Shown one piece after another: positions 12,983 to 16,971 of a stretch of 64,000 nt of DNA. The stretch covers positions 62,001 through 126,000 of the forward strand of contig NZ_OCNH01000002.1 in assembly GCF_900230225.1 (NCBI RefSeq), given 5' to 3'. This DNA comes from Spirosoma fluviale (GTDB lineage: Bacteria; Bacteroidota; Bacteroidia; Cytophagales; Spirosomataceae). The position numbers were made by a program, and so were the translations under genes. Below the pieces are notes generated by a model, which did no database searches, was not told the origin of the DNA, and worked only from the letters and a program-made list of their open reading frames with translations. Position 1 is the stretch's first letter; every line of letters begins with the position of its first letter.

Positions 12983-13002
12983 TTATTATGCTTGCATACT
13001 AA
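12983..13002. promoter_or_regulatory. Palindromic operator 1 of the fad genes
   Basis: TTATTATGCTTGCATACTAA: two 9-bp arms around a 2-bp centre, with one mismatch. It lies 15 bp before the acyl-CoA dehydrogenase start, inside the likely leader, where a bound repressor would block transcription. Confidence 0.75.
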
Positions 13003-13025
13003 TTCGTTAACAAATAAAGTCAATT

Positions 13026-13033
13026 CAAAATTA
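13026..13033 (-). promoter_or_regulatory. Candidate -7 box of the fadE-type gene
   Basis: On the minus strand TAATTTTG matches TAnnTTTG and overlaps the edge of operator 2 by three bases. This is the arrangement expected for repression by promoter occlusion. No clear TTTG -33 element was found. Confidence 0.4.
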
Positions 13034-13050
13034 GTATGCAAGCATACTAA
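13031..13050. promoter_or_regulatory. Palindromic operator 2 of the fad genes
   Basis: TTAGTATGCAAGCATACTAA: perfect 9-bp arms with a 2-bp centre, the best copy of the three. Its centre is 48 bp from the centre of operator 1, between the divergent acyl-CoA dehydrogenase and amidohydrolase genes. Confidence 0.8.
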
Positions 13051-13233
13051 TAATATTTTTTGTTTAACTTTTCCCTTCCTCTGTCCAACATTAGGTATGT
13101 CTGCCTAAAGAAGGCTTGTTGTAGGAAAAATGCGTTTAACAGCCCAAAATTTAGTTATTTGCCTTCTTGTTATTTACGTATTTAATGGAGTTGATTATGA
13201 GCCTTTTATAAATCAATTCCTTTCTGACAATCC

Positions 13234-14529
13234 ATGAAAAAAGCACTACTTATCTGTCTTTCACTGATTCCGTTCTTGGCAACTGCTCAGGTGCCGTTCC
13301 AAAACCTGAAAATCAATCCGCAGCGAATTCAAAACCGCTTGCTGGAGTTATCAAAATTTGGTGAACTGCCTAATGGTGGGATAGGGCGGGTGGCGTACAG
13401 CAAAGCTGATCTGGAAGGGCGGGCTTACTTTATCGGCCTGATGAAAAAAGCCGGACTCGACGTAAGCATTGACTTTGCGGGTAACATCATCGGCCGCCGG
13501 AAAGGGAAAAACCCGAACCTGAAACCCATCGGCTTCGGCTCGCACATCGACAGCGTACCTAATGGCGGTAATTATGACGGGCCCGTTGGGTCAATTAGTG
13601 GGCTGGAGTTGATCGAGACGCTCAATGAGAACAAGATCGTTACGGAACACCCGCTGGAGCTGATCATTTTTGCGAATGAAGAAGGGGGTACCGTTGGCAG
13701 CGGTGCCATGATTGGTAAAATTACCCCGGCTGCCCTGAAGTCGGTAAGCCAAAGTGGGCTAACCATTGCTGATGGTATCCGGGCAATTGGCGGCAATCCG
13801 GATAGCCTGAGCAAAGTGGTCAGAAAGAAAGGTGATTTGATCGCCTTCATCGAACTGCACATCGAGCAGGGTGGTATTCTGATGACGGAAAATCAGCAAA
13901 TCGGTATTGTTGAGGGCATTGTTGGGATTGAACACTGGGATGCTACGATTGAAGGTACACCCAACCATGCCGGTACCACGCCCATGAATATCCGTCGCGA
14001 TGCGCTGCTGGCAGCCTCCCGACTTATTATCGCACTGAATGAAGTGGTTACGAGTCACGAAGGGCGGCAAGTTGGCACGGTGGGTAAACTCGTGGTTGAG
14101 CCCGGTGCGTACAATGTTATTCCGGGAAAAGTGGTGCTGGGTGTAGAAATCCGGGATTTGTCGTACGATAAAATCTGGATGCTGTTTCGCGAATTCGAGA
14201 GCAAGGCCAGCCAGATTGCTAAAGCGTCTGAAACGACCATTACCTTCGCTCAGTCGGGCGTGCCTGTCATTCCCGCTTTAACGGCTAAACCCATTCAGGA
14301 TAAGATCATCGGTGCCGCCAAATCGCTGGGACTTTCTTATCGATACATGCAAAGTGGTGCCGGTCATGATTCGCAGGAAATAGCACAAATTGCCCCCGTA
14401 GGCATGATTTTCATCCCCAGCGTAGGGGGCATCAGCCATTCGCCCAAAGAATTTTCGAAAGGGGTCGATATTGGCAACGGGGCTACTGTGTTGTTGCAAA
14501 CGCTACTGGCCATTGACCGGGAAAAATGA
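13234..14529 (+). CDS. Exported M20-family hydrolase (carbamoylase / allantoate amidohydrolase type)
   Basis: A 431-residue zinc amidohydrolase with a signal peptide (MKKALLICLSLIPFLATAQ), so periplasmic. It belongs to the M20 hydantoinase/carbamoylase family, which cleaves N-carbamoyl amino acids, allantoate or related ureido compounds. Metal-site motifs are in order: GFGSHIDSVPNGGNYDGPVG, ANEEGGTVGSGAM, FIELHIEQGGIL and SGAGHDSQEIAQIAPVGMIF. The dimerisation domain begins at GTPNHAGTTPMNIRRDA. Export is unusual for this family, whose best-known members are cytoplasmic. It is divergent from the acyl-CoA dehydrogenase gene and its stop is only 22 bp from the convergent outer-membrane gene. 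The substrate is not determined. Confidence 0.87.
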   Translation: MKKALLICLSLIPFLATAQVPFQNLKINPQRIQNRLLELSKFGELPNGGIGRVAYSKADLEGRAYFIGLMKKAGLDVSIDFAGNIIGRRKGKNPNLKPIGFGSHIDSVPNGGNYDGPVGSISGLELIETLNENKIVTEHPLELIIFANEEGGTVGSGAMIGKITPAALKSVSQSGLTIADGIRAIGGNPDSLSKVVRKKGDLIAFIELHIEQGGILMTENQQIGIVEGIVGIEHWDATIEGTPNHAGTTPMNIRRDALLAASRLIIALNEVVTSHEGRQVGTVGKLVVEPGAYNVIPGKVVLGVEIRDLSYDKIWMLFREFESKASQIAKASETTITFAQSGVPVIPALTAKPIQDKIIGAAKSLGLSYRYMQSGAGHDSQEIAQIAPVGMIFIPSVGGISHSPKEFSKGVDIGNGATVLLQTLLAIDREK

Positions 14530-14551
14530 GAAGATTCGGTGCTTACGATTA

Positions 14552-15478
14552 TTAGTTAGGGCATTTTACAGGCGTTGGAATCAGGTAGTGAACGGCCAGA
14601 TGAGTGAGTATATAGATGTCATTACCCGGTAATCCGCGTCTTACATTGGTCGATACGTTCGTCAGGCTGGCCAGTTCGAACGTTCGACTTTGACCCGTGC
14701 GGGCATCGGTGGGTTCGTAGCGTCGGTCAGAAAGCATAGCCGACTGTTCGTTCGGCAGGTCGCTTCTATTGGGATACAGCCCGCTCACATCGTCGAGATA
14801 ATCCGTAAACGTATAGCGAAAGCTAAGCTCGGCGGATACGTTCAGGCTTTGGTTGAGTTTCCAGCGAAGGCCCACCCCTACGGGTATAGCCAGCGCAATC
14901 AGCGAGTAAGGCTTTGCATAACCGGCTTGCCCCTGTCCTTCGGTTCCCAGTGGTTGTAGGTCGGTCCAGGCACCTAATGCATCGCCAGAAGTGCGGGTGG
15001 GTAACCGTGCTTGTGGATTGTGGGCCACCAACGCCAGACCGAGCGTGGCATAGGGCGTCAAAGACGGACGTTGAGAAGGCCGTGCCGTTTCCGGAAAAAA
15101 TTGGTAGATGCCACTTACGGCGATTTCTTTCAAATCATTTCTGAAATGAAGATTTCGATGAAACTGGACCGGATGCAGGTTAGGGTTGTCTTTGTTATAG
15201 GTATAATCGTCGCCAACTAAACGTATCCAGGTAAACGAGGCTCGAACGGAGAAATAAGGCGTGAGATGACGCATGTAGTTTATCCCAACGTTCCAGCGGG
15301 GAAGTGGCGCAATAGGCTGCACCAACTGGCTTATGGGGGCCAACTCTCCCCGATAAATCGCTGAACCGGCTCCAATACCGATTTCAGAATACAATATGGG
15401 TTGCCTGTTGCGACGCTGTCCCTGAACTTCCGACAGGCACATGTAAATTAGAAAGAGGGCAATAAAGGTAGATCTCAT
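14552..15478 (-). CDS. Outer-membrane beta-barrel protein, DUF6089-like
   Basis: A 308-residue exported protein. A signal peptide (MRSTFIALFLIYMCLSEVQG) is followed by the DUF6089-type opening YSEIGIGAGSAIYRGEL, then GINYMRHLTPYFSVRASFTW. Alternating aromatic strands continue, including VGLRWKLNQSLNVSAELSFR and DYLDDVSGLYPNRSDLP. This family is a predicted outer-membrane barrel common in Cytophagales; no function is established. The gene converges on the amidohydrolase gene and is separated from the thiolase gene upstream by a strong terminator. Confidence 0.75.
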   Translation of the reverse strand: MRSTFIALFLIYMCLSEVQGQRRNRQPILYSEIGIGAGSAIYRGELAPISQLVQPIAPLPRWNVGINYMRHLTPYFSVRASFTWIRLVGDDYTYNKDNPNLHPVQFHRNLHFRNDLKEIAVSGIYQFFPETARPSQRPSLTPYATLGLALVAHNPQARLPTRTSGDALGAWTDLQPLGTEGQGQAGYAKPYSLIALAIPVGVGLRWKLNQSLNVSAELSFRYTFTDYLDDVSGLYPNRSDLPNEQSAMLSDRRYEPTDARTGQSRTFELASLTNVSTNVRRGLPGNDIYILTHLAVHYLIPTPVKCPN

Positions 15479-15617
15479 ACAAGTTCGGCAAACAAGTAGC
15501 CAAATTAGATGAAATATACCCTTGCACCAACTATTGACGTGAACAGCCTTATGACTTTGTCATCCATCCCGTTAATAATAGTTCTGATAACACAAGATCC
15601 TAGCTATATACAAAGCA

Positions 15618-15664
15618 ACGAGCTGGGTACCGAACCTGATTAATCAGTTCAGTACCCAGCTCGT
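15618..15664 (-). terminator. Intrinsic terminator of the thiolase gene
   Basis: A 17-bp stem with one mismatch (15618-15634 pairing with 15648-15664), 22 bp past the thiolase stop. Confidence 0.75.
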
Positions 15665-15685
15665 TTATGGTCTCCTGGCTACAAA

Positions 15686-16864
15686 TTAATTCAGGCGTTC
15701 AAAAATGCCGGCTACGCCCTGCCCGCCACCAACGCAGGCCGATACCATGCCGTATTTCTGATCTCGACGGCGCATTTCGTTCAATAGTTGTACCGATAAC
15801 CGTGCCCCGGTTGAACCCAGCGCGTGACCAAGGGCAATGGCACCTCCGTTCGGGTTGATTTTAGCGGGGTCTAGCCCCAATTCCTGAACAACGGCCAGCG
15901 CCTGAGCCGCAAAGGCCTCATTCAGTTCAATCAGATCGATGTCGTTCTGTTGTAAACCGGCTTTTTTGAGGGCGATGGGGATAGCCGCTACCGGTCCGAT
16001 ACCCATAATTTTAGGTTCTACACCGGCGGTGGCATATGATACCATACGCGCAACGGGTTGTAAGTTTAACTCGTTGACCAACCGCTCGGACATTACCACC
16101 ACAAAAGCGGCTCCGTCTGACGTTTGCGATGAGTTGCCGGCCGTAACGGAGCCCCCCGCAGCAAAAACGGGTTTCAGCTTGGCCAAACCTTCGGCACTGG
16201 TGTCTTTCCGTGGACCTTCGTCCTGAGCAACGGTCCACTCACGTGTTTTCTTCTTATTACTCTCCGCATCGAAATACGTTTCGCTCACCTTGATGGGCAC
16301 TATTTCGTCGGCAAATTTACCGTCTTTCTGAGCAGCCAGCGCTTTCACGTGCGAAGCGTACGCAAACTCGTCCTGAGCGTCGCGACTAATATTAAATTGC
16401 TGGGCAACCTGTTCGGCCGTAAGCCCCATGCCAATATAGTAGTCGGGGTGCGTTTTGGCTATTTCGTAGTTCAGGGCCGTTTTCCAGCCCATTACGGGTA
16501 CCATCGACATCGACTCGGTGCCTCCGGCAATAATACAATCGGCCAGACCGGCGTGGATTTTTGCCGAAGCAATGGCAATAGCCTCTAGACCTGAACCACA
16601 ATACCGGTTGATGGTCATGCCAGGAACACTGTTGGGCAATGAAAGTAAGGCTATGTAACGGGCAATCTGCATACCCTGCTCGGCTTCGGGCACGGCATTG
16701 CCTACAATAAGGTCCTCAACGCGGGCCGGGTCCAGTGCGGGAACCTGACTTAATAAATGCTTGATAACTTCGGCCGCCATATCATCGGGGCGGGTAAAGC
16801 GGAGACCGCCACGTGGTGCTTTACCCACAGCTGTACGATATCCGGCTACAATGTATGCGTCCAT
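15686..16864 (-). CDS. fadA: Acetyl-CoA acyltransferase (thiolase)
   Basis: A 392-residue thiolase, full length for the family. It performs the last step of beta-oxidation, releasing acetyl-CoA from 3-ketoacyl-CoA. The acyl-accepting Cys89 is in NRYCGSGLEA, His347 is in NGGAIALGHALGSTGAR, and Cys377 is in SACVGGGQG; all active-site positions are present. A hydratase/hydroxyacyl-CoA dehydrogenase (fadB) is normally adjacent but is not in this window. An operator like those of the acyl-CoA dehydrogenase gene lies 88 bp upstream (16952-16971), which ties the two genes to one regulator. An acetoacetyl-CoA-specific role is possible but the context favours beta-oxidation. Confidence 0.92.
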   Translation of the reverse strand: MDAYIVAGYRTAVGKAPRGGLRFTRPDDMAAEVIKHLLSQVPALDPARVEDLIVGNAVPEAEQGMQIARYIALLSLPNSVPGMTINRYCGSGLEAIAIASAKIHAGLADCIIAGGTESMSMVPVMGWKTALNYEIAKTHPDYYIGMGLTAEQVAQQFNISRDAQDEFAYASHVKALAAQKDGKFADEIVPIKVSETYFDAESNKKKTREWTVAQDEGPRKDTSAEGLAKLKPVFAAGGSVTAGNSSQTSDGAAFVVVMSERLVNELNLQPVARMVSYATAGVEPKIMGIGPVAAIPIALKKAGLQQNDIDLIELNEAFAAQALAVVQELGLDPAKINPNGGAIALGHALGSTGARLSVQLLNEMRRRDQKYGMVSACVGGGQGVAGIFERLN

Positions 16865-16951
16865 AAAGATGCGATGTTGATTTACTGGTTAAGCAGGAAA
16901 TTCATGACAATAACTGAATTTTCAATCGAAAAATTACAGCGATTCGTCAAA

Positions 16952-16971
16952 TTATTATGCAAGCATACTAT
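16952..16971. promoter_or_regulatory. Palindromic operator 3, upstream of the thiolase
   Basis: TTATTATGCAAGCATACTAT has the same core TATGC-AA-GCATA as the two operators before the acyl-CoA dehydrogenase gene. The minus strand next to it contains AATAATTTG, close to a -7 box. Confidence 0.75.

Follow-up and report, generated by a model that had tools for sequence, protein, structure and literature searches.

Control of fatty-acid oxidation in bacteria is known mainly through TetR- and GntR-family regulators of other phyla. In Bacillus subtilis, the TetR-family protein FadR governs the fadN-fadA-fadE unit and is released by long-chain acyl-coenzyme A (acyl-CoA), and in Escherichia coli a GntR-family protein, also named FadR, exerts acyl-CoA-dependent control over beta-oxidation genes genome-wide. 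FabT of streptococci is a MarR-family regulator of fatty acid synthesis with its own operator. Here we analyze a 64,000-nucleotide stretch of the Spirosoma fluviale genome (assembly GCF_900230225.1, contig NZ_OCNH01000002.1, positions 62,001 to 126,000; hereafter the window), in which copies of one palindrome precede the beta-oxidation genes fadE and fadA. Our reading, to which we assign a probability of roughly 0.83, is that these palindromes act as the operators of a single, dedicated MarR-family repressor whose gene lies elsewhere in the genome; an acyl ligand probably releases this repressor.

Among the described systems, Bacillus FadR is a close counterpart, as a local repressor of a fadB/fadN-fadA-fadE gene set. 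The window fadE exceeds the cut-off of the NCBIfam Bacillus-type FadE model (809.5 bits against 600), and marR is followed by fadB, fadA and fadE, all downstream, in 16 of 80 named loci (stretches of up to 6 kb downstream); the window genes therefore look like relocated parts of such an operon, equipped with their own operators. The Spirosoma system differs from the Bacillus one in that its regulator is a MarR rather than a TetR protein, its operator is different, and the regulator gene lies beside genes that it would control. Local repressors of beta-oxidation form a described class, of which a MarR protein acting through the present operator would be a variant. Escherichia coli FadR is alike in its genome-wide control of beta-oxidation, whereas its protein family and operator are unrelated; FabT shares the MarR family and the link to fatty acid metabolism and differs in serving synthesis and in its operator. 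A literature search of titles and abstract openings, with partial coverage and few subscription journals, found no MarR regulator of beta-oxidation in Bacteroidota.

A preliminary description of the window, made from the sequence alone, had placed a 20-bp palindrome twice before the acyl-CoA dehydrogenase gene and once before the thiolase gene, with two unrelated genes between them, and this arrangement was recovered in full (Table 1). A window scan located the exact core TATGCNNGCATA at 12987, 13035 and 16956. When one mismatch was allowed in the ten fixed bases, seven window matches were obtained against 1.79 (standard deviation 1.27) expected, and seven were reached in none of 100 shuffles. 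The site before fadA also occurs 5' of fadA in two other genomes (G029, locus L088; G100, locus L097).

Table 1. Operators, promoter elements and genes at the fadE-fadA locus, in window coordinates.
Feature	Position	Strand	Remarks
Operator 1 of fadE, TTATTATGCTTGCATACTAA	12983..13002	.	directly 5' of start codon; exact core; present in 30/30 genus loci
Operator 2 of fadE, TTAGTATGCAAGCATACTAA	13031..13050	.	exact core; present in 30/30 genus loci, 46-48 bp from operator 1
Operator 3, 5' of fadA, TTATTATGCAAGCATACTAT	16952..16971	.	exact core
TTTATTTG	13011..13018	-	conserved TTTcTTTG block, differing from TAnnTTTG at one position; likely -7 box of fadE
TTG in operator 2 centre	13039..13041	-	possible -33 element, 20 nucleotides from TTTATTTG
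TAATTTTG	13026..13033	-	TAnnTTTG box of the preliminary description; overlaps operator 2; not conserved
fadE, acyl-CoA dehydrogenase, 599 amino acids	11169..12968	-	NCBIfam Bacillus-type FadE model
M20 peptidase gene	13234..14529	+	between fadE and fadA
DUF6089 (outer-membrane-like) gene	14552..15478	-	between fadE and fadA
fadA, acetyl-CoA C-acyltransferase (thiolase), 392 amino acids	15686..16864	-	

The whole genome (7.8 Mb, 18 contigs) contains 11 copies of KTATGCNNGCATAM, against three of the reversed control. Nine of the 11 lie directly 5' of fatty-acid oxidation genes, representing eight transcription units: in the window, fadE with two sites and fadA with one; marR-fadB, encoding a FadB-like fusion of 821 amino acids; etfBA, for the electron-transfer flavoprotein (ETF); an enoyl-CoA hydratase gene with a short-chain dehydrogenase/reductase (SDR) gene; a pair encoding a membrane Fe-S protein and a CCG protein; a second acyl-CoA dehydrogenase (389 amino acids); and a second thiolase (402 amino acids). 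The remaining two copies stand before an extracytoplasmic-function (ECF) sigma factor gene, 53 bp upstream (L080:3001; G000:C4:846246), and a dynamin-like gene, and we tentatively judge them to be chance copies. The idea that one operator ties two beta-oxidation genes together is borne out, and the motif is neither scattered at random nor absent upstream of other fatty-acid genes: it recurs before further beta-oxidation and ETF units. These comparisons support the palindromes as predicted operators that link the two window genes into one regulon.

To place the motif in context, we examined 14 genomes picked for spread from the 134 of the order that carry the regulator gene, covering 94 of 96 sites (three of five in G025). 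The reference set comprised MarR, FadB, both acyl-CoA dehydrogenases, both thiolases, EtfB, enoyl-CoA hydratase and the Fe-S protein. With a site scored when the tblastn start of a reference gene lay within 450 bp, and with the three window sites counted by hand, 64 of 91 sites plus those three precede a reference-set gene; an alternative rule, the nearest reading frame within 400 bp, gives 65 of 94. Chance palindromes or a repeat element could be suspected: a core of ten fixed bases should turn up a few times in a genome, this one has three copies of the reversed control, and the ECF sigma factor and dynamin-like sites may themselves be chance copies. Against this, nine of the 11 sites precede genes of one pathway, whereas none of 15 reversed-control sites across 16 genomes precedes a reference gene and 13 of the 15 fall inside reading frames of at least 100 amino acids; moreover, both fadE sites are kept in all genus loci compared, despite variable DNA further upstream. 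An origin by chance or as a repeat element is hardly credible on these grounds and was rejected.

The regulator gene under one of these operators (G000:C10:160841-161308) lies on a contig other than that of the window, before fadB, and its product of 156 amino acids belongs to the MarR family (PF01047, 32.5 bits against a cut-off of 24.6). TetR_N was not among its Pfam hits at an E-value of 0.001, and no NCBIfam model scored above cut-off, the nearest being Saro_0803 (43.5 bits against 200). The best named match is a Spirosoma validum MarR protein, at 93% identity. Twelve genes in the genome encode MarR domains above cut-off, and this one alone adjoins a site. An AlphaFold2 model of an orthologue (L158, built from 60 sequences; predicted local distance difference test score 91) displays a MarR winged-helix fold between helices of dimer-interface type. 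The Foldseek matches shown were MarR-type proteins, including DNA-bound MepR (4lln_J, root-mean-square deviation (rmsd) 1.7) and CouR (6c2s_A, rmsd 2.2); these share the fold, at about 20-25% identity in the structural alignments, and have other targets. We infer that the MarR protein binds the palindromes.

The regulator and its own operator are conserved together. Of 194 genomes sampled from the order, 134 carry this MarR gene; in a phylum-wide sample of 296 genomes, 54 do, all 54 belonging to the same class. Among 54 orthologue loci, 46 have the exact core no more than 350 bp 5' of the MarR gene, six (L036-L038, L042, L057, L059) have a one-mismatch version, and two have nothing close. Outside the order, the exact core was present in 18 of 18 loci, at 44-53% MarR protein identity. 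Across 80 named relatives, a set that overlaps with the 54 loci, the core before the MarR gene is exact in 67, carries one mismatch in six, and has no good counterpart in seven. In 48 of the 54 loci, marR is followed, no more than 0.9 kb downstream and in the same orientation, by a fadB homologue. At five loci (L036-L038 and, in Runella, L189 and L190), an altered half-site stands before marR, and fadB is not in the stretch examined.

We then asked whether the motif accompanies the regulator or the pathway. The 134 genomes with this MarR contain 503 motif copies against 82 of the reversed control, about sixfold, while the 60 genomes without it, several of the sampled genomes being incomplete assemblies, contain 27 against 18. 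A fadE orthologue was detected in 157 of the 194 genomes: MarR and fadE occur together in 125, MarR only in nine, fadE only in 32, and neither in 28. In the 32 genomes with fadE and no MarR, the motif is not enriched (16 copies against 15), indicating that it tracks MarR, not the pathway.

This result bears on the kind of repressor involved. The preliminary description had favored a TetR-type repressor responsive to acyl-CoA. On such a view, the MarR gene would be merely a further target of that repressor. Beta-oxidation is under TetR control in other lineages, as with Sulfolobus FadR according to the available text of PMC6449355, and this genome has 13 TetR genes. However, none is encoded in the window, as the same description had remarked, and each of the 13 is at least 59 kb away from all 11 sites. 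The sole repressor-family gene under an operator is that of MarR, whose relatives across the class are themselves preceded by the motif, and genomes with this MarR are the ones in which the motif is enriched. A TetR regulator is therefore very unlikely and was rejected as an explanation, whereas the identity of the MarR protein as the regulator is strongly supported.

To relate the operators to transcription, we compared them with the Bacteroidetes primary promoter, given in the available text of PMC6847099 as TTTG / TANNTTTG and, in refined form, as TAHHTTTG, which lies 4 or 5 nucleotides before the start and is accompanied by a weak -33 element. We counted 43 TAnnTTTG boxes around 65 distinct regulon operators, some of the boxes being common to neighboring operators, against 6.4 (standard deviation 2.7, maximum 15 in 200 trials) when the flanks were shuffled; full TTG-N18-21-TAnnTTTG pairs are present at nine of these operators against 0.4 expected (maximum 4). 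Of the 43 boxes, 24 begin either 15-19 bp past the operator centre or 20-31 bp ahead of it, positions at which a bound dimer should hinder polymerase. For fadA, the comparison yielded no assignable promoter. This placement over likely promoters fits repression, which is fairly supported by it together with the usual behavior of MarR proteins.

The fadE promoter was compared within the genus, where a match was obtained in 35 of 36 genomes and 30 loci were returned, this genome included. Between the two operators, a TTTcTTTG block is conserved, and TTTATTTG, its form in the window, is the likely -7 box of fadE. The preliminary description had instead pointed to a TAnnTTTG box at operator 2; the overlap is real, but TAATTTTG is not conserved in the 30 genus loci and was rejected as the fadE promoter. 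The centre of operator 2 reads TT on the coding strand in all 30 loci, whereas that of operator 1 varies (AA in 21, AC in six, GT in two, AT in one). The TTG so formed in operator 2 may be the -33 element of the fadE promoter; against this, the TTTcTTTG block carries a T at a position that is almost always A in Flavobacterium, and where fadE has two operators in other families (G034, G003), their spacing is different. We propose that the MarR protein is an undescribed master regulator of beta-oxidation in the Bacteroidota class that includes Cytophagales and Flavobacteriales, in place of the TetR- or GntR-type FadR of other phyla, and that the upstream fadE operator of the genus would be locked as TATGC-TT-GCATA because its central TTG doubles as the primary-sigma -33 element, leaving repressor and polymerase in competition for those bases. 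As a joint claim this is tentative, and we rate it slightly below even odds.

Several observations weigh against the MarR-repressor reading as a whole. In the 14-genome comparison, 27 of the 91 sites are not before a reference-set gene, mostly in G190 (7 of 11), G119 (4 of 6), G037 (4 of 7) and G004 (3 of 4), with further misses in the present genome, G034 and G025 (two each) and in G014, G024 and G040 (one each). The orthologue loci without a good site before the MarR gene (L052 and L055) and the seven such loci among the named relatives count likewise, as do the nine MarR genomes that have no fadE match at the cut-off used; the cross-genome counts, in addition, ignore the kinship of the genomes. 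The likely fadE -7 box has a T where, in the available text of PMC6847099, an A is nearly invariant in Flavobacterium. Finally, the nearest box of etfBA lies 26 bp after the operator centre, which would put the operator upstream of where the promoter spacer usually lies.

The last point is also the argument for activation of some or all units by MarR, since at etfBA (L017, L083) and at L146 and L156, where the nearest TAnnTTTG box follows the operator centre by 26-27 bp, the operator is the more upstream element. Elsewhere the likely promoter coincides with the operator or precedes it, and at fadE the start would be covered by operator 1; activation is accordingly an unlikely alternative.

For the preferred reading, repression by MarR, we propose the following mechanism. 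A MarR dimer would bind TATGC-NN-GCATA with one winged helix per half-site. At fadE both operators could be occupied; with the upstream portion of the likely promoter under operator 2 and the predicted transcription start under operator 1, RNA polymerase would be excluded. Single operators would serve fadA, marR-fadB, the second thiolase, the second acyl-CoA dehydrogenase, etfBA, enoyl-CoA hydratase/SDR and the Fe-S/CCG pair, and MarR would limit its own synthesis by repressing its own gene. When fatty acids arrive, a fatty acyl-CoA, or else a different acyl compound from the pathway, would probably release MarR and switch on the whole set.

The nature of that ligand is the least constrained step. 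Acyl-CoA is plausible by pathway logic, and the Foldseek fold matches did not reveal the ligand of MarR. A MarR protein that binds these sites while sensing something else (free fatty acid, short-chain or 3-hydroxyacyl-CoA, an aromatic acyl-CoA, or acyl-acyl carrier protein) is a distinct possibility, if less probable than not: several steps in the regulon are chain-length-neutral, one relative (G034, L121) has a site before acpP, and the Foldseek matches include CouR with p-coumaroyl-CoA (5cyv), an example of a MarR protein answering to an acyl-CoA, in that case an aromatic one. On the other side, every gene type of the set fits general fatty acid oxidation, and we saw no gene of an aromatic pathway next to the sites in this genome. 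The regulator protein contains no cysteine, which speaks against a thiol redox switch.

Taken together, computation recovers the regulon, its cognate regulator, the self-directed operator and their conservation. The result is a testable regulon made up of a single short motif, a MarR gene and eight transcription units. The analysis provides a likely function for a MarR protein with no NCBIfam model above cut-off and suggests fatty-acid-inducible promoters for Bacteroidota. It also ties beta-oxidation genes to electron-transfer partners, including the Fe-S/CCG pair, a candidate ETF:quinone oxidoreductase.

This pair (L019:6208-8404), in which the N-terminal part of the Fe-S protein has no Pfam hit, looks like a split form of that enzyme and may pass ETF electrons to quinone. 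Its operator lies 301 bp upstream and is a palindrome whose 15-base arms match perfectly on either side of a central GT. In the gap between operator and pair (L019:5894-6208, on G000:C6) sits a tRNA-Phe gene of opposite orientation, as it does at L086, L089, L101, L140, L146 and L156; all seven such loci, which come from three families, share this arrangement. A transcript from the operator-controlled promoter would run antisense across tRNA-Phe and might couple fatty-acid induction to it. A one-mismatch operator between tRNA-Phe and the Fe-S gene in this genome was set aside, as it is missing in the six relatives examined.

Some of the sites outside the reference set may mark extra regulon members, namely an enoyl-CoA hydratase (L128), a nitronate-monooxygenase-like protein (L122), acpP and lipase-like hydrolases. 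The acpP copy in G034 lies 92 bp upstream of the gene (L121:3001-3342) and would connect fat breakdown with fat synthesis in that lineage. In G037, motif copies precede two lipase-like hydrolases (L125, L126), one of them bearing a secretion-system sorting tail; these copies might bring lipid scavenging into the regulon.

Regarding gene order, the neighbor of fadE in the 30 genus loci is the M20 gene in three (this genome included) and fadA in 13, with none of the reference set within the stretch in 14; the gap between the window genes thus looks recent. Downstream of fadA, at 15617-15665, a strong inverted repeat with 19-base arms, 95% complementary, and an 11-base loop is probably a terminator.

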